64,000 nucleotides of DNA from Rhizobiaceae bacterium (GTDB taxonomy: Bacteria > Pseudomonadota > Alphaproteobacteria > Rhizobiales > Rhizobiaceae), in assembly GCA_016742175.1 (NCBI GenBank), contig JACVCH010000001.1:248001-312000 (forward strand), written 5' to 3'. The translations under genes were made by a program, and so were the position numbers. Position 1 is the stretch's first letter; every line of letters starts with the position of its first letter. Below, one piece after another: positions 18,711-53,638 of the stretch. The notes below the pieces were generated by a model, which made no database searches, was not told the DNA's origin, and saw nothing but the letters and a program-made list of their open reading frames with translations.

Positions 18711-19748
18711 TTACTCGTCCTCGAACAGGCTCGTCTGCCGCACCGCCAGATCGCGCGGCGCTTCCAGCCCGAGATGGCGCCAGGCATTGGCGGTCAGCAT
18801 GCGACCGCGCGGGGTGCGCTGGATGAAGCCCTGCTGGATCAGATAGGGCTCGATGATGTCCTCGATCGCGTCGCGCGGCTCGGAAAGGCCGGCGGCGATG
18901 GTCTCGATGCCGACGGGGCCGCCGCCGAAATTGGTCGCGATCATGGAGAGATAACGCCGGTCGAGATTGTCGAGGCCGAGCGCGTCGACTTCCAGCCGGG
19001 TGAGCGCGGCGTCGGCGACCTTGCGGTCGACGATCTCGGCGCCGGCGACGGAGGCGAAATCGCGCACGCGGCGCAGGAGCCGACCGGCGATGCGCGGGGT
19101 GCCGCGAGCACGGCGGGCGATTTCGACGGCACCGTCGCCGCTCATCGGCAGGGACAGGATGCGCGCGCCGCGGCTGACGATCTTCTCCAGTTCCTCGACG
19201 GTGTAGAAATCGAGGCGGACGGGGATGCCGAAGCGGTCGCGCAGCGGGTTGGTGAGGAGGCCGAGCCGGGTCGTCGCGGCGACCAGCGTGAAGCGGGCGA
19301 GGTCGATCTTGACCGAGCGGGCCGCCGGGCCTTCGCCGATGATGAGGTCGAGCTGGAAATCCTCCATCGCCGGATAGAGGATTTCCTCGACCGCCGGGTT
19401 GAGGCGATGGATCTCGTCTATGAAGAGGACGTCGCGGTCTTCGAGGTTGGTCAAAAGCGCGGCGAGGTCGCCGGCCTTGGCGATCACCGGGCCGGAGGTC
19501 GAGCGGAAATTGACGCCGAGTTCGCGCGCCATGATCTGCGCCAGCGTCGTCTTGCCGAGGCCGGGCGGGCCGACGAAGAGGACATGATCCAGCGCCTCGC
19601 CGCGCGTTTTCGCCGCCTCGATGAAAATCTTGAGATTGGCCCGCGCGGCCGCCTGGCCGACGAAATCGTCGAGCGTCTGCGGGCGCAGCGTCGTATCGAC
19701 GTCCTCGCCGCGCTTTTCGGGGGTGATCAGGCGGGGGGCGGTGTTCAC
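18711..19748 (-). CDS. ruvB: Holliday junction branch migration ATPase RuvB
   Basis: A 345-residue hexameric AAA+ motor that drives branch migration with RuvA. Visible: the N-terminal [11 protein letters not shown] segment, Walker [10 protein letters not shown], Walker [12 protein letters not shown], sensor region VAATTRLG, and the C-terminal winged helix ([19 protein letters not shown]). GTG 19748 overlaps the stop of the upstream PIN toxin gene (GTGA) and gives the usual length; an upstream ATG at 19829 would place about 27 unrelated residues in front. Confidence 0.97.
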
Positions 19749-20149
19749 GAGAGGAGTACTGCGGCGGGGATCTTCGCCGCTGCCTTCTTGTCGAGAGTGA
19801 TCAGGCAGTCGCATCCCGCGTCCAGACAAAGATGGGTAATCATCAAATCCGCGAAATCCCCGCTACCATCTTCAACTCCACCAAGTGCGCGAATGACCGC
19901 GTCAGGCGACTGAACCTCCACTCCACGAATACGAATGATCCTTCTGATTGCTTCGGTGCTTTGAACTTTTGTAAATCCGTAGTGCTTGCGCAGTGCGTAA
20001 TCGATCTCGACCAAGCTGATCAGCGTGACGTAGCCTGTGTAATCCTTCCCCATGCGTGTGCCGAATTCGACGACCGATTGGTGTTGATGAGGATTATCTT
20101 TGACGATCAGTCGCAGCAGGATGTTGGTGTCGATACCGACTTTTCTCAT
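19745..20149 (-). CDS. PIN-domain ribonuclease toxin, VapC-type (second module)
   Basis: A 134-residue PIN-domain protein. Acidic residues of the metal site are visible: Asp7 ([10 protein letters not shown]), Glu near residue 48 ([11 protein letters not shown]), and the [11 protein letters not shown] and LITLDKKAA segments. VapC toxins cleave tRNA or rRNA. Its ATG overlaps the antitoxin stop (ATGA), and its own stop overlaps the ruvB GTG (GTGA). The DNA looks clearly less G/C-rich than its neighbours, for example TTTGTAAATCC, suggesting acquisition by transfer. Confidence 0.88.
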
Positions 20150-20427
20150 GCGGCAAAATCTTTGAACTGCTTATTCGGAGCTATTGCACTTTCAGCCATT
20201 TCCCGCGCGATAGTTTCGTTCAATTCATCGAGAGTGGCCGGCCCGTTTGGTGGCTCTCCCAAAAATCCGGCCAGATCGTTGAAGTCCAAATTCTTGGGCG
20301 TCAGAACGAGTTTACCGTCATCGACGCTGATAAGGATCGTGTCGCCAGGCATGATCCCCAAAATCTCGCGCATCTCACTGGGGAGCGTGATCTGCCCTTT
20401 CGGTGACGCAATGATTTCTTTCCACAT
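20146..20427 (-). CDS. AbrB/MazE-fold antitoxin (VapB-type, second module)
   Basis: A 93-residue protein with an N-terminal swapped-hairpin DNA-binding domain (ASPKGQITLPSEMREILGIM), followed by a C-terminal tail that would thread into the PIN toxin (NETIAREMAESAIAPNKQF). ATG 20427 is chosen because AAGGGCG stands eight bases upstream; a TTG at 20454 in the same frame is less likely. It starts 57 bases after ruvA ends, beside a palindrome that may be its operator. Confidence 0.85.
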   Translation of the reverse strand: MWKEIIASPKGQITLPSEMREILGIMPGDTILISVDDGKLVLTPKNLDFNDLAGFLGEPPNGPATLDELNETIAREMAESAIAPNKQFKDFAA

Positions 20428-20448
20428 TTTTGCGCCCTTTCCGACTTT

Positions 20449-20462
20449 TGCCAATTTTGGCA
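20449..20462. promoter_or_regulatory. putative operator of the second toxin-antitoxin module
   Basis: TGCCAATTTTGGCA is a 6-2-6 inverted repeat located about 20 bases upstream of the antitoxin start and downstream of ruvA. AbrB-fold antitoxins usually repress their own operon at such palindromes; binding here is inference. Confidence 0.45.
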
Positions 20463-20484: not shown

Positions 20485-21102
20485 TCACCGCGCCAGTTCC
20501 TTCAACCCCAGACGGATCAGCTTCGACGAATCGGCGCCCTCGCCGGCCGTCTTCAGCGCGGCGGAGATTGCGTTTGCGGCGATGTCGCGGGAGTAGCCGA
20601 GGTTGACGAGTGCGGAGACGGCGTCGGCGATCGGGGCGGGGGCGATGCCTTCGCCGAGTTCCTGCTTGAGGCCGATCGTGCCGGTCGCCTCGCCGGCATA
20701 GGCGGGTGCCTTGGTGCGCAGTTCGGTGACGATGCGCTCGGCCACCTTCTTGCCGACGCCGGGGGCGCGGGCGACCATGGTGATGTCGCGCAGCGCGATG
20801 GCGTTGGCGAGTTCGGATGGAGTGAGGGTGGAGAGGACGGCCAGCGCGACCTTGGCGCCGACGCCCTGGACATTGTTCTGCAAGAGGCGAAACCACTCGC
20901 GCTCGAGCTGCGATCGGAAACCGTAGAGCCGGATCATGTCCTCGCGCACATAAGTCTCGATGAAGAGCGTGATCGCCTCGCCGGCGCCGATGCCGGCGAG
21001 CGTGCGGGTGGAGCAGTAGGCGACGTAGCCGACGCCGTGCACGTCGACGATGCAGTGGTCCTCGGCGATCTCGTCGACGGTGCCCTTGAGCTTTCCGATC
21101 AT
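20485..21102 (-). CDS. ruvA: Holliday junction branch migration protein RuvA
   Basis: A 205-residue junction-recognition protein. The N-terminal OB fold ([20 protein letters not shown]), the helix-hairpin-helix motifs ([14 protein letters not shown] and [13 protein letters not shown]) and the C-terminal RuvB-binding domain ([16 protein letters not shown]) are all visible. Its ATG at 21102 overlaps the stop of the first PIN toxin (ATGA), so in this genome ruvA translation appears coupled to a toxin gene rather than to ruvC. Confidence 0.97.
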
Positions 21103-21515
21103 GGATGCGTGTCCGGTGCGATGATGTCGATGTCGGGGAAGTAACTGCGATAGCGTGCCGGGTCGCGGGTGAGGATCGCATGTCCGGCGACATCGGCATG
21201 CGCGCCGATGAGGAAGTCGGGCAAGGTGCGTTCGCGCATTCCGCCGCGTGAGCGATACAGAACATGCGCACGCCCCGCACGCCAGGCTGCGGCGAACGGC
21301 AGAGCCTCGCGTTCCAGTTTCAACCCCTCCAGCGCACGCTGCAACTCGTCTTCGCTCGCATACCGCGCCCCGATTTCGGACCAGATGACGGGATTGACGA
21401 CGAGGTCGCTTTTGGCGCCATGAAAAACGAGCTTCGATCGTGCCCAGCCGATCGCTTCGCTGCCGCTCAGTATGTCGAGCAAGATATTCGAATCAACGAG
21501 GATCGAGGTCTTCAC
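21099..21515 (-). CDS. PIN-domain ribonuclease toxin, VapC-type (first module)
   Basis: A 138-residue PIN protein with Asp8 in [12 protein letters not shown], a Glu in [12 protein letters not shown], and Asp residues in [14 protein letters not shown] and [15 protein letters not shown], the pattern of the PIN metal centre. It overlaps its antitoxin by 23 bases at the 5' end and ruvA by 4 bases (ATGA) at the 3' end. Unlike the second module, its base composition resembles its surroundings, so it may be an older insertion. Confidence 0.88.
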
Positions 21516-21759
21516 GCGGGCCCCTCAACCAGTCGACATACTCCTTGCCGTCCATGCCATCCAGATCAAGCGTGCCGGTCACGCGGTCGGCCCAGGCTTC
21601 GATCGCCTTGGCGCGGCGGGCCGATTCGTCGGAAACGATACGCACCACGCGAACCGCGTTGCCTTCGCGCACGAAGTCGACCTCCGTTCCCGGCGTGATG
21701 CCGAGGTGATCGCGGATGGCCTTCGGGATGGTGACCTGACCTTTTTCGGTGACGCGCAT
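21493..21759 (-). CDS. AbrB/MazE-fold antitoxin (VapB-type, first module)
   Basis: An 88-residue protein consisting of an AbrB-type DNA-binding domain (MRVTEKGQVTIPKAIRDHLG) and a C-terminal toxin-binding tail rich in charged residues ([18 protein letters not shown]). It starts 57 bases after ruvC, next to two copies of an 11-base near-palindrome. The first and second antitoxins share only the general fold, so the two modules do not look like a recent duplication. Confidence 0.87.
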   Translation of the reverse strand: MRVTEKGQVTIPKAIRDHLGITPGTEVDFVREGNAVRVVRIVSDESARRAKAIEAWADRVTGTLDLDGMDGKEYVDWLRGPREDLDPR

Positions 21760-22404: not shown

Positions 22405-22926
22405 CTAGCGCCCGAAAGCGGTCTTCAGCAGCGTGATCTGATCGGAGACGGGATTGACGGCGCGGCGCTCGAAGCTGTCGTCGGCGCCGTAAACCTCGCC
22501 GTCCATGCGGCGCACGAGCGACTGGAGGCGCAGCGACCGGTCGACGAGATCGCGGAAGGCGGCGGGCAACTCGCCCCAGGACTGGTCGGTGTCGAAGGCC
22601 GAGGCCGTGTCGAGACGGACCTTGGATTTTTCGGCGGCGACCTGTTCGCGCGTCATCTCGCCGGAATTGGCGGCGCGCTGGAGGAGGAGCCAGGAGGCGA
22701 TCTGCATCAGGCGGGTCGTCAGCCGCATCGATTCGGCGGCATAGAGCGTGGCGGCGACGCGCGACAGCGACTTCGCCTCGACGCGGCCCTGGCCGTCGAG
22801 ATATTCGGCGGCTTCCTCGACGAGGTGCATGCCTTCGCCGTAAAGCTTCTTGAACGAGCCGGAGAAGACGCGGTGTTCCGCCAGATTGATCGTCGCGGCC
22901 TGGCCGCTCCCGGCTTCCATTCTCAT
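22405..22926 (-). CDS. DUF1465 family protein
   Basis: A 173-residue, mostly helical cytoplasmic protein. The segment LAEHRVFSGSFKKLYGEGMH and the later AAESMRLTTRLMQIASWLLL are characteristic of DUF1465, a family found in alphaproteobacteria with no settled function. ATG 22926 has GGGGCG upstream; an ATG at 22920 is an alternative. It precedes ruvC on the same strand, separated by the inverted repeat and possible LexA box. Confidence 0.8.
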   Translation of the reverse strand: MRMEAGSGQAATINLAEHRVFSGSFKKLYGEGMHLVEEAAEYLDGQGRVEAKSLSRVAATLYAAESMRLTTRLMQIASWLLLQRAANSGEMTREQVAAEKSKVRLDTASAFDTDQSWGELPAAFRDLVDRSLRLQSLVRRMDGEVYGADDSFERRAVNPVSDQITLLKTAFGR

Positions 22927-23105: not shown

Positions 23106-23210
23106 AAAAAAAAGAGCCACGGAAAGCGCGGCTCTCAGGAGTTTAACAGGGAGGCGTCAAACGGAGTGGTCCAACCACTCGGTAAGAATCCAGAAGACTG
23201 GATGGGGACA
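23106..23210 (-). ncRNA. candidate small RNA with three hairpins and a strong terminator
   Basis: In the gap after the acyl-CoA synthetase gene the minus strand carries, in order, the hairpin ATCCAG-TCTT-CTGGAT (23203-23188), the hairpin GAGTGGT-TGG-ACCACTC (23180-23164), a single-stranded CGCCTCCC stretch, and an intrinsic terminator AGAGCC / GGCTCT with an eight-T run (23135-23106). That is the architecture of a trans-acting sRNA. It could instead be only a structured 3' UTR. A weak TTCGAC-17-TACCCT promoter-like pair lies upstream. Confidence 0.5.
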
Positions 23211-23288
23211 GTAAACACCCGTAAAGCTTAACAAAGGGTAAAATTTTCGGAAAATCCGTCGAAAACTGTCCCGTTTTGACCGATTTCG

Positions 23289-24926
23289 TCAAAGCGCCCT
23301 GGCCATCTCCCGCAGGCGGAACTTCTGAATCTTGCCGGTCGAGGTCTTCGGCACCTCCCCGAAGATCACCGTGCGCGGGCATTTGTAACGCGCGATGAGC
23401 GTGCGGCAGTGGTCGATGATCTCGTCCTCGCTCGCCGTGCGGCCGGGCTTCAGTTCGACATAGGCGACGGGCGTCTCGCCCCATTTCTCGTCCGCGCGGC
23501 CGACGACGCCGCAGGAGGCGACGGCGGGGTGCTTGTAGAGCGCGTCCTCGACCTCGATCGAGGAGATGTTCTCGCCGCCGGAGATGATGATGTCCTTGGA
23601 GCGGTCCTTCAACTGGATGTAGCCGTCGGGGTGCATGACGCCGAGGTCGCCGGAATGGAACCAGCCGCCGGCGAAGGCCTCTTCGGTGGCCTTGGGGTTT
23701 TTCAGATACCCCTTCATGACGATGTTGCCGCGGAACATGACTTCGCCCAGCGTCGCGCCGTCGGCGGGCGTTTCCTGCATCGTCTCGGGGTCCATGACGG
23801 TCAGGCCTTCGAGCGCGGCATAGCGCACGCCCTGCCGGGCCTTCTTCGTGGTGCGCGCGCCCTTGTCGAGTTCGTCCCACGCGCCCTTCCATTCGTTGAC
23901 GGTCGCGGGGCCATAGGTCTCGGTCAGGCCGTAGAGATGGACGACGGCGAAGCCGGCATCGGCCATGCCGGAGAGCACCGCCTCGGGCGGCGGGGCGGCG
24001 GCGGTGTTGAAGGTGACGGTCTGCGGGAAGTCGCGCTTGTCCTTGTCCTCGGCATTGATGAGCGTCGCCATGACGATCGGCGCGCCGCACAGATGCGTGA
24101 CGCCGTTGTCGGCGATGGCGTCGTACATGGGCTTCGCCCGCACCCAGCGCAGGCACACATGGGTGCCGACCTGCACCGCGAGCGTCCACGGGAAGCACCA
24201 GCCATTGGCGTGGAACATCGGCAGCGTCCACAGGTAGACGCAGTGCTTGTCCATGGCTGCATGGATCGTATTCGCGTAGCACATCAGCGCCGCGCCGCGA
24301 TGGCTGTAGACGACGCCCTTGGGGTTGCCGGTCGTGCCGGACGTGTAGTTGAGCGAGATCGCGTCCCACTCATCGTCCGGCATCGACCAGGCGAAATCAG
24401 GATCGCCGGCAGCGAGAAGCGCCTCGTAGTCCTCGGCGCCGATGCGCTCGCCTTTCGGATAGGGCGCGTCGTCGGAATAGTCGGGATCGTCATAGTCGAC
24501 GACGAGCGGCTTGACCGATGCCATTGCCAAGGCGTCGGCGACGACCTTCGAATGCTCGCGGTCGACGATGAGCACCTTCGTCTCCGCGTGGTCGAGCTGG
24601 AAGGCGATGGCGGCGGCGTCGAGCCGCGTGTTGAGCGAGTGGAGCACGGCCTTGACCATCGGCACGCCGTAATGCGCCTCCAGCATCGGCGGCGTGTTCG
24701 ACAGCATCACCGTCACCGTGTCGCCCTTGCCGATGCCGCGCGCGGCGAGCGCCGAGGCGAGGCGCAGCGCGCGCTCCCAGAAGATCCTGTAGGTCGTGCG
24801 CGTCCTGCCGTGAACGATGGCGACGTGGTCGGGGAAGACCTTCGCCGCGCGCTCCAGGAAGGTGAGCGGCGTCATGGGCTGGTGGTTGGCCGGATTCTTG
24901 CCGAGATGCTGCTCGTAAATGGTCAT
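23289..24926 (-). CDS. acyl-CoA synthetase (AMP-forming)
   Basis: A 545-residue member of the acyl-adenylate/CoA ligase superfamily. Visible: the P-loop-like LNYTSGTTGNPKGVVYSH, the YGLTETYGPATVN motif, WFHSGDLGVMHPDGYIQL, and the C-terminal GGENISSIEVEDAL and STGKIQKFRLRE with the catalytic Lys. It activates a carboxylic acid through an acyl-AMP. The N-terminal TIYEQHLGKNPANHQPMTPL resembles plant AAE-like and medium/long-chain synthetases. ATG 24926 follows GGAGGA. Chain-length preference is not readable. Confidence 0.9.
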   Translation of the reverse strand: MTIYEQHLGKNPANHQPMTPLTFLERAAKVFPDHVAIVHGRTRTTYRIFWERALRLASALAARGIGKGDTVTVMLSNTPPMLEAHYGVPMVKAVLHSLNTRLDAAAIAFQLDHAETKVLIVDREHSKVVADALAMASVKPLVVDYDDPDYSDDAPYPKGERIGAEDYEALLAAGDPDFAWSMPDDEWDAISLNYTSGTTGNPKGVVYSHRGAALMCYANTIHAAMDKHCVYLWTLPMFHANGWCFPWTLAVQVGTHVCLRWVRAKPMYDAIADNGVTHLCGAPIVMATLINAEDKDKRDFPQTVTFNTAAAPPPEAVLSGMADAGFAVVHLYGLTETYGPATVNEWKGAWDELDKGARTTKKARQGVRYAALEGLTVMDPETMQETPADGATLGEVMFRGNIVMKGYLKNPKATEEAFAGGWFHSGDLGVMHPDGYIQLKDRSKDIIISGGENISSIEVEDALYKHPAVASCGVVGRADEKWGETPVAYVELKPGRTASEDEIIDHCRTLIARYKCPRTVIFGEVPKTSTGKIQKFRLREMARAL

Positions 24927-24975
24927 GCTGGTCGTGTCCTCCGGAATTCGGACGCCGAGAAAAGCGCCCCGGCCG

Positions 24976-25740
24976 CTATCCGTCAAGAAGGGCCGAAAGC
25001 CCGTCCCAGATGAGCTTCAGCGCGACGATGAAGACCATGGCGTACATGAACGGGTAGAAGACCTCCGCGCGCATGCGCCGGACGATCCATGCGCCGGCGA
25101 TGGTGGCGAGCGGGGCGATGGGCATCAGCACGGCGGATGCAGTCAGGTTCGCCGCGTCGAACTGGCCGAGCGCGAAATAGGGCACAAGCTTCACCGCGTT
25201 GACGATGGCGAAGTAGATGACGCTTGTGCCGACATAGATGCGCGGGGCCTGGCCGAGCGCCAGCGCGTAGACCTGGTAGGGCGGCCCGCCGGCATGGGCG
25301 ACGAAGGAGGTGAAGCCGCTGACGATGCCCCAGAAGGTGCCGCGCGCGACGGAGTGGCCGGCGCGGTGTTCGGAGCCGGCCATGCGGGTGGCGAACCAGC
25401 GCAGGAAGAAGACGAGGGCGACGATGCCGACGATGAGCCGCACCATCGCCTCGGTGACGATGGCGGCCGTCAGCCAGCCGATGGCGATGCCGAGAAGCGC
25501 GCCCGGCAGCATGATGCGCAGGGTCGCCATGTCGCGATTGCCGCGCCACAGCCACAGCGACACGATGTCCATCAGGATCAGGATCGGCAGCAGGATCGCT
25601 GCAGCCTGAACCGGCGGCACGACCAGCGCCATCAGCGGCACGCCGATCAGCGCGGCGGCGCCGCCAAGCCCGCCCTTCGACAGGCCGACGAGCAGGACGG
25701 AGGGGATGGCGGCGGCGTAGAACCAGGGATCGGTCAGCAA
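24976..25740 (-). CDS. TauE/SafE family anion permease
   Basis: A 254-residue inner-membrane protein with about eight hydrophobic segments in two halves. The N-terminal SVLLVGLSKGGLGGAAALIGVP and the mid-protein GTFWGIVSGFTSFVAHAGGPP are repeated signatures of the TauE/SafE (sulfite/organosulfonate exporter) family. It lies 49 bases upstream of the acyl-CoA synthetase on the same strand, but no functional link is evident. Confidence 0.9.
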   Translation of the reverse strand: MLTDPWFYAAAIPSVLLVGLSKGGLGGAAALIGVPLMALVVPPVQAAAILLPILILMDIVSLWLWRGNRDMATLRIMLPGALLGIAIGWLTAAIVTEAMVRLIVGIVALVFFLRWFATRMAGSEHRAGHSVARGTFWGIVSGFTSFVAHAGGPPYQVYALALGQAPRIYVGTSVIYFAIVNAVKLVPYFALGQFDAANLTASAVLMPIAPLATIAGAWIVRRMRAEVFYPFMYAMVFIVALKLIWDGLSALLDG

Positions 25741-40879: not shown

Positions 40880-41039
40880 AAGAGCGAACCACGGCATCCG
40901 ATGGAGAGGTTGATCCCGGGTGCCTACAACGTAGGTGGGCGCCGTGTGTCCGAACCCACGGGTCCGGCCAGGGACAGCTCCCTAGAGATCAGTAAGGCCC
41001 CGAGAATTAAGTTACTCCTGTCGAGAAGCGCAGAACGCC
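40880..41039 (-). ncRNA. ssrS: probable 6S RNA
   Basis: The minus strand upstream of the 5-formyl-THF cyclo-ligase gene has the position and elements expected of alphaproteobacterial 6S RNA, which sequesters housekeeping RNA polymerase. Small helices are visible: AGGGA/TCCCT (40969-40982), GTGGG/CCCAC (40935-40959) and CCTAC/GTAGG (40923-40935), followed by GGGATCAACC. A TATATT -10-like box (41051-41046) sits just before the inferred 5' end. Both ends are estimated; no covariance test was possible. Confidence 0.6.
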
Positions 41040-50870: not shown

Positions 50871-51694
50871 ATGCTGGCCAGGGGCCCGGTCGAGGTGACG
50901 AGCTTGTAGTCGGCCATCTCCTCGGCGGAGAGGTAGTAGAGCGCGCGCGGCGGCGTGTCGAGCGCGTGCAGCCACATAGCCGGGTCGACGCCCATTTCCG
51001 ACAGATAGCGCGAGATGCGCGCGGCGGTGACCTGCGCATCCGACATCGCCTGCTCGGGCGCGGGCAGGCTGGACGTGCCGGCATAGAACTGATGGAGGCC
51101 GATCGCCGCCTTGTCGCCGACGGTGCGCGTCGTGCCGCCGGCGAAGACCAGCGGGCAGGACGAGGCGCACAGCGCGCCGTCCGGCACCAGCGTCGCCAGA
51201 TCGCGCTCGCGGATCATCCGCGCCATCGCCATCGCATCCTCGAGCGAGCCGCCGGGCGAGTTGAGCGAGACGGTCTGCACGTATTCGCCGCGCGCGTCGA
51301 GTTCGGCGGCGAGCCGGGCGGACGAGCCGACATCGATCGAGCCGGTCGCGGCGAGGACGCCGCCGGGCTTCAGTTCGAAGCGAACCGCATCCTTCAGCAG
51401 CGCCTCGTCGGTCTCGACGTTCTCGCGCGGGTCCTGCGAACCGGAAGACGAACCATCGGTCTCGACGGCCGGTGGCAGGATCGGCTCGGTGACGTGCACC
51501 GATGCCTGATCGGACGGCCACAGCCCGCCAGTTTCCTTCTGCAATTCGTAAAGGTCGAACGCCAGCACGCCGACGACGCCGGCGAGCATCGCGCCGAAGG
51601 TGAAGCGCATGACATTACCGTCGTCGACGCGATCGACGAGCTGGGCGAAGCGGCCCTGCGGCGCTATGTCGGAATGGTGCGCGTGGTCGCTCAT
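50864..51694 (-). CDS. membrane-anchored ClpP-like serine protease family protein
   Basis: A 276-residue protein with one membrane helix near residues 32-48, a disordered linker, and a ClpP/crotonase-like domain: VSLNSPGGSLEDAMAMARMI carries the oxyanion Gly loop, DGALCASSCPLVFAGG the nucleophile Ser region, and KAAIGLHQFYAG the His region. Orientation suggests the domain is periplasmic. It is coupled by ATGA overlap to the four-helix membrane protein transcribed just before it. The substrate is unknown. Confidence 0.75.
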   Translation of the reverse strand: MSDHAHHSDIAPQGRFAQLVDRVDDGNVMRFTFGAMLAGVVGVLAFDLYELQKETGGLWPSDQASVHVTEPILPPAVETDGSSSGSQDPRENVETDEALLKDAVRFELKPGGVLAATGSIDVGSSARLAAELDARGEYVQTVSLNSPGGSLEDAMAMARMIRERDLATLVPDGALCASSCPLVFAGGTTRTVGDKAAIGLHQFYAGTSSLPAPEQAMSDAQVTAARISRYLSEMGVDPAMWLHALDTPPRALYYLSAEEMADYKLVTSTGPLASIQ

Positions 51695-53034
51695 GGCTCG
51701 AACCGCTTGCGTTCGTTGAGGGAAAGGGGCGTGACGTTCTCGTTCGACTGCGCGGGCGGCGACGATTGGGCGGCGGGTCGCGTCTCGGCGACTTCCGGCT
51801 CTGGCTCCGGCGTCGCGACAGGCTGGCGCGCGGCGCGGGCGGCGGCGAGCGTCTCGTGCAGTTCGATCGAGCGCAGCATGTCGGCCGCGGTGATGCGGTC
51901 GGCGTCGGAGAGGCCCTCCTCGTGCCGGCGCAGCGCCGCCATCACCACCGCCATGACGGCGACGAAGACGCCCGGCAAAAGATCGATGGAGATCGCACCG
52001 GCCCAGCTCGGCAGGAAGCTCGTCGCGTAGACCAGAACCGCCTCGGCCGAGGACAACGGCACGAAGCGGCGCTCATCGACGCGGGGCTGGGCGAGGATTT
52101 CGTTGGCGGCTTCCGAGAGCGCGGCGGACTGGGCGCCGACCGAGGCGCGCACCGTCTCCATCACGGTCGACTGGCGGCCGGCGAGGTCGGCATCGGCGCC
52201 GCTCGTCACCGGGGCGATGAAGCCCATCGACAGATCCTGCGCGGCGCGGGCGACCGAGGGCGCGATGGACGTCTGTTCGAGCGAGGCGATGACGCCGGAC
52301 AGCGCCACCGTTTCCTGCGCGAACTCGTTGGCGCGCGGCTCGACCGGGCCGGAAGCGGAGACGAGCTGGCGCATCGCCGTCAGGTGAAGCTGGCCTTCCT
52401 CGAACAGCGTCTGCACGCGCTCGCGCGAGCCTTCGATCGTGGCCTGCAGCTCGTTCATCTGCGCCGACATCTGCGTCAGGAGCTGGACGACGCTGCCCGA
52501 GCCGGACGTGCCGGTGAGCGCGCCGGACGCGCGCTCGTCTTCGGCGAGGCGGGCAAAGCGCTCCTGCGCGCGCTGGATGTCGGGCAGGAGCGAGAGCGCG
52601 CCGAGCGCGTTCGAATGCGCCTGGTCGAGATCGGCGGTGTATTCCTGCTGGGTCGTCGCCAGATGCTGCTCGACGGCGGCGGAGCCGGCGAGCGCGGCGG
52701 CATTCAGCCACGACGACATGGCGATGATCATAGCCGAGCCGACGATCATGATGAGGAAGAGCGCGACGCGCGAGGCGCCGTCGCGCATCTCGGGCACGAA
52801 GCGGATCAGATAGGTCCAGAAACCGTAGATGCCGACCGAGACGGCGACCGAATAGATGATGGCGCCGAGGAAGACGAGCGTCGCCGAGCCGTCGAGAAGG
52901 CCGCGCACACCGAGATAGGTGTAGACGCCGCTCGCCAGCGCGAGCGTCGCCAGAACGAAACGCGTCATCGTCTGCAGCGAGGCGATGTGGTTGCGCAGGC
53001 GGCTGGCGGATGCCGATGTCGAATGGTTACTCAT
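51691..53034 (-). CDS. multi-pass membrane protein with coiled-coil periplasmic region
   Basis: A 447-residue protein of unknown function. Hydrophobic segments lie near residues 24-44, 52-75, 90-108 and 355-375; between the third and fourth is a 240-residue, mostly helical, Gln/Glu/Ser-rich segment (ERVQTLFEEGQLHLTAMRQL). The C-terminal 80 residues are polar and Pro-rich. No family recognised. Its stop overlaps the start of the ClpP-like protease gene (ATGA), so the two proteins probably work together. Confidence 0.72.
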   Translation of the reverse strand: MSNHSTSASASRLRNHIASLQTMTRFVLATLALASGVYTYLGVRGLLDGSATLVFLGAIIYSVAVSVGIYGFWTYLIRFVPEMRDGASRVALFLIMIVGSAMIIAMSSWLNAAALAGSAAVEQHLATTQQEYTADLDQAHSNALGALSLLPDIQRAQERFARLAEDERASGALTGTSGSGSVVQLLTQMSAQMNELQATIEGSRERVQTLFEEGQLHLTAMRQLVSASGPVEPRANEFAQETVALSGVIASLEQTSIAPSVARAAQDLSMGFIAPVTSGADADLAGRQSTVMETVRASVGAQSAALSEAANEILAQPRVDERRFVPLSSAEAVLVYATSFLPSWAGAISIDLLPGVFVAVMAVVMAALRRHEEGLSDADRITAADMLRSIELHETLAAARAARQPVATPEPEPEVAETRPAAQSSPPAQSNENVTPLSLNERKRFEP

Positions 53035-53122: not shown

Positions 53123-53485
53123 TTAGCGGCAAAGCGCGTCCGCCGGGGTCGGCACGACATGGTCCGGCAGGCCATACATGTAGCTGCGGCCGTGGAGGAG
53201 GACAGCGCCGAACTCGCAGTCGCGATGGGGGCGAAGCTGCAGGCGCTGGCCGCCATGATAGGCGATGCGCGGCGCGTCGGTCTCGTGATAGGACCCGGTC
53301 GCGCGGTAGCCCGATGCCGCTTCGCCCGCACCGACGACGATGCGCTTGTAGCCGGCGGGGGAGTAGATAACGAGATTGCCGAAACTGTCCGCGTGGACCT
53401 GGTCCTGGTAGAGGCTCCCGGCAGTTGCGGCCGATGCCGTGGCAGCGAAGAGCGCGGCGGTGAGGGCGTATGCGAGCGTGTTCAT
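53123..53485 (-). CDS. small exported protein of unknown function
   Basis: A 120-residue protein with a signal peptide (MNTLAYALTAALFAATASA). The mature part (SLYQDQVHADSFGNLVIYSP onward) carries a C-terminal CEFGAVLLHGRSYMYGL segment with two cysteines (also the penultimate residue) that could form a disulfide. ATG 53485 has a strong GGAGGA site; the longer frame to 53551 would bury the signal. Its gene diverges from a small lipoprotein gene. Confidence 0.75.
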   Translation of the reverse strand: MNTLAYALTAALFAATASAATAGSLYQDQVHADSFGNLVIYSPAGYKRIVVGAGEAASGYRATGSYHETDAPRIAYHGGQRLQLRPHRDCEFGAVLLHGRSYMYGLPDHVVPTPADALCR

Positions 53486-53638
53486 CACGGTCCTCCGGAA
53501 CGGGGCTTGCGGCATGTTAAGACAAGTTAACGCTTTCTTAACCCTTGTCACCCGAAACGGGTCGCTTGCCCGCGCGTCTTTCTGCGGACATGGTTAACGC
53601 CGACGGTCCCGACGACGCGCCTTGCTGCAAGGACACGC

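Follow-up and report, generated by a model that had tools for sequence, protein, structure and literature searches.

A BjrC1505-family small RNA with a predicted CtrA box upstream of rcdA in a Rhizobiaceae bacterium

The small RNA between an acyl-CoA synthetase gene and rcdA

The window, by which we mean the whole stretch of 64,000 nucleotides analysed, carries on its minus strand a small RNA of about 98 nt flanked by an acyl-CoA synthetase gene and rcdA, and the features of this locus are collected in Table 1. An Rfam search at gathering level gave a single match at this stretch, RF02356 (BjrC1505), which runs over window positions 23107-23248 of the minus strand with 67.5 bits against a cut-off of 50 and covers model positions 1-140 of 140. 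The elements of the BjrC1505 consensus, i.e. hairpin 1, hairpin 2, CCUCCC loop and terminator, are present in that order. A promoter-free model, R1, among whose 78 sequences the window copy itself stands, placed the RNA at 23110-23208 with 80.5 bits, and the genome holds one BjrC1505 copy. The first-pass annotation had proposed a candidate small RNA with a terminator and an anti-Shine-Dalgarno loop; this is upheld by the family match, covariation and conservation, while its statement that no named family was matched gives way to BjrC1505. Judged from sequence, 23106-23203 on the minus strand is a genuine small RNA of this known family, presumably transcribed here.

Table 1. Features of the small RNA locus (window coordinates)
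Feature	Position	Strand	Basis or remark
Acyl-CoA synthetase gene	23289..24986	-	NF006020, 900.7 bits; upstream neighbour, outside the conserved unit
CtrA box 1 (predicted), TTTACCCTTTGTTAA, 7/8 half-site positions	23228..23242	-	putative small-RNA promoter; begins 39 nt before the predicted start
-10-like element TTTACT	23210..23215	-	consensus wTTACT in 141/148 aligned promoters
Small RNA proper, BjrC1505 family, ~98 nt	23106..23203	-	Rfam match and R1 model; start 23203 predicted, last T 23106
Hairpin 1, ATCCAG-TCTT-CTGGAT, 6 perfect pairs	23188..23203	-	fold and covariation
Hairpin 2, GAGTGGT-TGG-ACCACTC, 7 perfect pairs	23164..23180	-	fold and covariation
Anti-Shine-Dalgarno element CGCCTCCC	23149..23156	-	sequence, fold, homologues
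Intrinsic terminator	23106..23136	-	stem 23136-23112; eight T 23113-23106
CtrA box 2 (predicted), exact TTAACCCTTTGTTAA	23060..23074	-	between terminator and rcdA
rcdA (adaptor in CtrA proteolysis), 171 aa, ATG at 22920	22405..22920	-	NF051867 equivalog, 206.1 bits vs cut-off 170; Pfam DUF1465

Besides two hairpins the small RNA contains the anti-Shine-Dalgarno element CGCCUCCC. The two perfect hairpins and the strong terminator with eight T noticed earlier were all recovered on the minus strand (Table 1), and the start predicted here falls inside 23200-23290, the interval in which the lack of a transcript start had been named as counting against the RNA. The folding energy of stretch 23250-23105 is -45.1 kcal/mol, whereas shuffles average -28.7 (z -5.2), and none of 200 shuffles did as well. 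The stretch once described as single-stranded does hold its pairing element, but it is not fully open, as in the minimum-energy fold CCTCCC sits in the loop of a third, weak hairpin.

BjrC1505 is a known but little-understood regulatory RNA family, for which the work of Madhugiri et al. in 2012 on Bradyrhizobium small RNAs is said to be the founding paper. In the part of the open-access literature covered, BjrC1505 was met only as a table entry, the identifier RF02356 was not found, and no paper was seen that ties the RNA to CtrA or rcdA. The family itself being already known, what is new is the likely regulator, CtrA, and the genomic partner, rcdA.

Elsewhere in the window a 6S RNA (RF00013; 66.4 bits, cut-off 46.4) lies at 40882-41039 on the minus strand, and around ruvA/ruvC two pairs of small ORFs on the minus strand, at 19745-20454 and 21099-21759, look by eye like toxin-antitoxin pairs, each of a nuclease-like and a short DNA-binding-like protein.

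Conservation and distribution of the RNA

Two sets of homologues were used. One was collected with the Rfam model (n=137; 108 loci of the order and 29 further loci of the family, with 19 weaker family matches left out); the other comprises at least 118 genome loci chosen solely by an exact 19-nt loop pattern. In the Rfam-model set CGCCTCCC occurs in 119/137 and CCTCCC in 129/137 homologues, and the core GACGCCTCCCTGTT is exact in 102/137 and one off in 17/137. For the structure, the loop-selected loci among the matches listed were aligned together with the window copy as 78 non-redundant RNAs, whose consensus has four hairpins. Compensatory changes, whose absence from relatives had been named beforehand as the observation that would count against an RNA, were found: at 8 of the 22 pairs these matches include one or more sequences with changes on both sides and pairing kept. 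In hairpin 1 A-U is replaced by G-C in 11 sequences and U-A by C-G in 3, in hairpin 2 G-C by A-U in 3, and the terminator varies in this manner at four pairs. The same 78 RNAs have broken pairs at the base of hairpin 1 (15/78) and at the innermost terminator pair (22/78), and covariation contributes little (term -0.48). Because the loci were picked by their loop, the near-invariance of the loop hairpin is uninformative.

RF02356 was matched at E<=0.001 in 104 of 121 sampled genomes of the order (88 pass the cut-off), in 49 of 61 of the family (36 pass) and in 30 of 289 of the class (14 pass), while none of 14 control genomes, the Caulobacter control included, gave a match. Two matches each, the second weaker, were noticed in four of the 121 order genomes (G017, G024, G049 and G097).

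A same-strand RcdA-like gene lies within 400 nt downstream at 95/108 order loci and 28/30 family loci, and at 110/118 loop-selected loci among the matches listed. The acyl-CoA synthetase gene is found upstream on the same strand at 17/30 family and 3/108 order loci, and at 18/118 loop-selected loci among the matches listed. The earlier placement of the RNA after the acyl-CoA synthetase gene describes this window correctly, but the conserved neighbour is rcdA, on the downstream side. These counts also bear on the proposal that the RNA is merely the 3' end of the synthetase mRNA with its terminator, or an RNA derived from that 3'-UTR; the gene is on the same strand and its stop (23289) lies 47 nt before box 1, yet box and RNA persist at the many order loci where no synthetase stands upstream on the same strand, and we consider this origin highly improbable.

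The predicted CtrA boxes and their relation to rcdA

The window's own box 1 departs by one mismatch from TTAA-N7-TTAA. Among the matches listed, 113 of the 118 loop-selected loci had 150 nt upstream, and of these 111 carry the motif with at most one mismatch and 50 carry it exactly; dinucleotide shuffles averaged 7.9 (maximum 16) and 0.53 (maximum 3), respectively, and the best of the other spacings from 2 to 15 gave 65 and 11. Control stretches had the motif with one mismatch in 3/99, 0/105 and 1/96 cases (4/300 in all) and never exactly. In the Rfam-model sets, where the model itself scores promoter positions, the box is present with at most one mismatch at 99/108 order and 30/30 family loci. 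The order box, wTTACT, hairpin 1 is kept in 141/148 promoters with a box, and the distance from box to hairpin 1 is 38-40 nt in 120/132 placeable promoters. In all these box and linkage counts the relatives are not independent events.

Passages on S. meliloti give a CtrA consensus TAA-N7-TTAAC from five verified sites, and in Caulobacter spacings other than 7 gave low affinity (PMC3616915). Activating sites in Caulobacter are described as full TTAA-N7-TTAA motifs near -35, with that of ctrA P2 at -39 (PMC4287350). Such a motif near -35, which marks the CtrA regulon, is present here with 7/8 positions in the window and relative to a predicted start. As the box is placed at -39, like that for activation in Caulobacter, the 5' part of the RF02356 model, roughly its first 45 positions, resembles promoter DNA that bears a CtrA box, and CtrA would therefore be the most likely activator of the RNA. 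Since MucR 1/2 are reported on CtrA target promoters in passages on Caulobacter (PMC4287350), the box alone cannot name its reader, and TTAA-N7-TTAA might be read by another regulator such as MucR, or be a repressing site, with CtrA not the activator. We hold this to be very unlikely, as the spacing of 7 is the CtrA rule, with other spacings bound weakly (PMC3616915), and the -39 position equals that of CtrA activation at ctrA P2 (PMC4287350).

Across the 64-kb window we found 6 CtrA-box sites where 0.53 would be expected, including one on either side of the small RNA. Apart from box 2, the only exact TTAA-N7-TTAA box lies at 53527-53541; the ORFs tested beside it (53123-53494 and 51691-53034, minus strand) gave no Pfam match.

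Box 2 is exact at 24/28 family loci and 8/95 order loci; with one mismatch it is found at 25/95 order loci, as compared with 15 for the adjacent spacing of 6, and among the matches listed it is exact at 28/110 loop-selected loci. Outside the family, the idea that rcdA generally has a second CtrA box in front of it was thus rejected. The scarcity of box 2 there and the same-strand position of rcdA, with a median spacer of 188 nt behind the RNA at the 95 order loci with rcdA, would suit a terminated rcdA leader started at the box-1 promoter, a cis-acting attenuator from which read-through makes the rcdA mRNA and of which the short RNA is a by-product. We regard this as unlikely. Within the family rcdA mostly has its own box, an attenuator would have no need of the near-invariant CCTCCC core, and outside the order 7 of 15 loci (the best 15 of 27 genomes with an RF02356 match) keep RNA, terminator and box with no adjacent RcdA-like gene.

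At these best 15 of 27 class loci the box is present with at most one mismatch in 14/15, a count biased upward, since promoter positions contribute to the score of the Rfam model by which these loci were collected; the count of loci lacking rcdA is free of that bias. By tblastn an RcdA-like gene lies 200-538 nt downstream at 8/15, and the box is kept at 7/7 of the others, one of which meets a contig end 165 nt past the RNA. An RcdA search of those seven genomes gave matches all below the cut-off, three of them 41-45 kb off, one about 3.4 kb off and two on another contig, with none in the remaining genome. At four class loci outside the order (L446-L449) RNA and box stand upstream of a gene that looks by eye like an O-acetylhomoserine sulfhydrylase gene.

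RF02356 misses or weakly scores part of the family. Of 29 selected genomes in which RF02356 matched weakly or not at all, 22 gave an RcdA match, and upstream of it R1 found the RNA in 17/22 at E<=0.0014 and in one more weakly (0.011), with no match in four of the 22 (L434, L435, L437 and L438). R1 also matched 4/4 named records, including S. meliloti Ak57 (24.9 bits, E 7e-4). On whole family genomes R1 reached 47/61 as compared with 49/61 for Rfam, the gain being limited to the short rcdA regions. The S. meliloti copy scores 27.2 bits with RF02356, under the Rfam cut-off; there the DUF1192 gene is followed by an exact box TTAACCGCAAATTAA, the RNA ending in CTCCCTGTTTTACC and terminator, an exact box TTAACCCTTTCTTAA and rcdA. 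An identity of this copy with alpha-r45 was discarded, Rfam giving no such match there. Box 1 was not found in the examined stretch of divergent relatives such as L418, L422 and L427. One 1.5-Mb genome (G163, locus L435) has an exact CtrA box before rcdA and no small-RNA model match, so far as its sequence goes seeming to have lost the RNA and retained the rcdA box. Both rcdA and rpmE lie on the 3.7-Mb Ak57 record (L439, CP090106.1) named "plasmid pSymB", possibly a chromosome under the wrong label.

In S. meliloti a CtrA ChIP-seq peak is reported at the rcdA promoter region, with rcdA mRNA unchanged on CtrA depletion (PMC4433202). The bound CtrA site may serve the divergent small-RNA copy, which may explain a peak without an effect on rcdA mRNA; the peak would fit a CtrA-driven RNA before rcdA, and it would fit box 2 too. 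For agrobacteria several start sites are given upstream of rcdA in all three lineages, together with possible CtrA sites (PMC10469942); they fit a CtrA-driven RNA before rcdA, and the passages of both papers name no such RNA. In Hyphomonas, according to a passage of PMC7200025, rcdA is not regulated by CtrA.

Targets, known small RNAs and proposed role

The target prediction with the CCTCCC region called for by the first-pass annotation was run and gave no convincing conserved target. In the own genome GGGAGGCG-N2-10-ATG occurs at 24 places, two of them overlapping, as against 2 for the reversed control, and the ORFs there, with names such as ABC ATPase read by eye, have no common theme. With a 9-mer seed we obtained 81 places in 16 genomes; the 79 loci examined include duplicates and copies of the RNA gene, and 46 of them have an ORF of at least 60 codons at that ATG, three counted twice. 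No convincing conserved target emerged from this 9-mer search of 16 genomes, in which the sole recurrent ortholog group was a LivF-like ABC ATPase in 4/16, the own genome not being among the four. As the search was made without a control seed, the LivF-like ATPase is a lead only, and the shared sites point weakly, as sequence, to ABC transporters as possible targets. The LivF-like ABC ATPase starts at four family loci (L349, L367, L383 and L387) share ATGGGAGGCGTCGATG, complementary to the small-RNA loop.

The starts of ctrA, gcrA and rcdA were not outstanding pairing partners among 115 own-genome ORFs, their ranks being 23, 33 and 19, respectively, for the short seed and 7, 20 and 15 when the longer loop was used; this background is a strict one because it includes the 24 seed-picked loci. 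Low duplex energies for ctrA, from a comparison of 13 regions, were set aside because that comparison had no background; 5 of the 13 regions gave no CtrA-like ORF, and three of the 13 were cut by contig ends.

Among known RNAs, suhB/MmgR and AbcR (RF00519) share with the window RNA a CUCCCU anti-Shine-Dalgarno core followed by a U-rich terminator. The window RNA scores 24.5 bits with RF00519, below the cut-off of 41, so that membership and identity with MmgR fail on score, and RF00519 differs in having its own matches in the own genome (best G000:C20, 66.6 bits) and in 107/121 order genomes. AbcR RNAs are described as bearing CU-rich anti-Shine-Dalgarno motifs (PMC7143759). Together with the CUCCCU-ACUU core in common with suhB/MmgR and the LivF-like ATPase as the only recurrent start-site group, this would agree with an AbcR/MmgR-type nutrient or stress RNA with transporter or metabolic targets and no cell-cycle role, next to which the CtrA-like box is incidental. 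We think this quite unlikely in view of the strict box conservation and the rcdA linkage; the transporter lead came from a search without a control seed, and ABC ATPases are a very common kind of gene.

CcnA of Caulobacter is described as putatively CtrA-activated, with a C-rich loop able to meet ribosome binding sites, and as having no clear homologue detected in S. meliloti (PMC8959179). BjrC1505 resembles it in the C-rich loop and putative CtrA activation, a likeness of features that does not imply homology; CcnA differs in being encoded at the replication origin and in its CCCC loop, and the Caulobacter control genome has no RF02356 match. EcpR1 (PMC4414408) and GspR (PMC5928217) are likewise rhizobial small RNAs, reported in the passages concerned to act on cell-cycle mRNAs, with other loci and loop motifs. 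EcpR1 is described with the stem-loop 1 motif UCCGCCGCAUCU, downstream of divK-pleD at a locus by rpmG (PMC4414408); the window RNA lacks UCCGCCGCAUCU and lies between the acyl-CoA synthetase gene and rcdA, and identity with EcpR1 was rejected. So was identity with GspR, whose locus is placed between SMc03844 and SMc03845 (PMC5928217). SorX of Rhodobacter (RF02784) has a CUCCCUGUU-like core, and the RF02784 model matched only the S. meliloti copy, with 17.7 bits against a cut-off of 46.6; this is far too low for membership and leaves the motif in common.

Taken together, we favour, with moderate confidence, the reading that this is a single-copy trans-acting BjrC1505 RNA, activated by CtrA, whose CCUCCC loop acts on Shine-Dalgarno regions as a post-transcriptional arm of CtrA. 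It builds on what was computed, namely family membership, a fold backed by compensatory changes, a conserved box whose spacing is strictly 7 nt and whose distance is nearly fixed, and the rcdA linkage, from which we infer transcription here, CtrA binding and activation, a part for Hfq, the mode of action and the targets. At high CtrA levels the box-1 promoter would be activated, and the strong intrinsic terminator would end transcription before rcdA is reached; rcdA for its part mostly has a separate, second predicted CtrA box in this bacterial family. With its CCUCCC loop exposed, the RNA would pair with the G-rich Shine-Dalgarno regions of a set of mRNAs and lower their translation or stability, probably with Hfq bound at the U-rich tail. 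An RNA switched by CtrA and acting on mRNAs would thus form a post-transcriptional arm of the CtrA circuit. More tentatively, and rather doubtfully as yet, the RNA might be the missing post-transcriptional CtrA arm of the Hyphomicrobiales and the working counterpart of CcnA, tuning cell-cycle or division-phase mRNAs throughout the order, including S. meliloti, whose copy lies below the Rfam cut-off.

The box with its strict spacing and the rcdA linkage assign BjrC1505 a position in the alphaproteobacterial cell cycle that can be tested, and they offer an answer to the S. meliloti puzzle of CtrA bound at the rcdA promoter region with no effect on rcdA mRNA (PMC4433202). RcdA helps to destroy CtrA; if the proposed reading is true, CtrA would switch on a small RNA right beside the gene for its own degradation adaptor.
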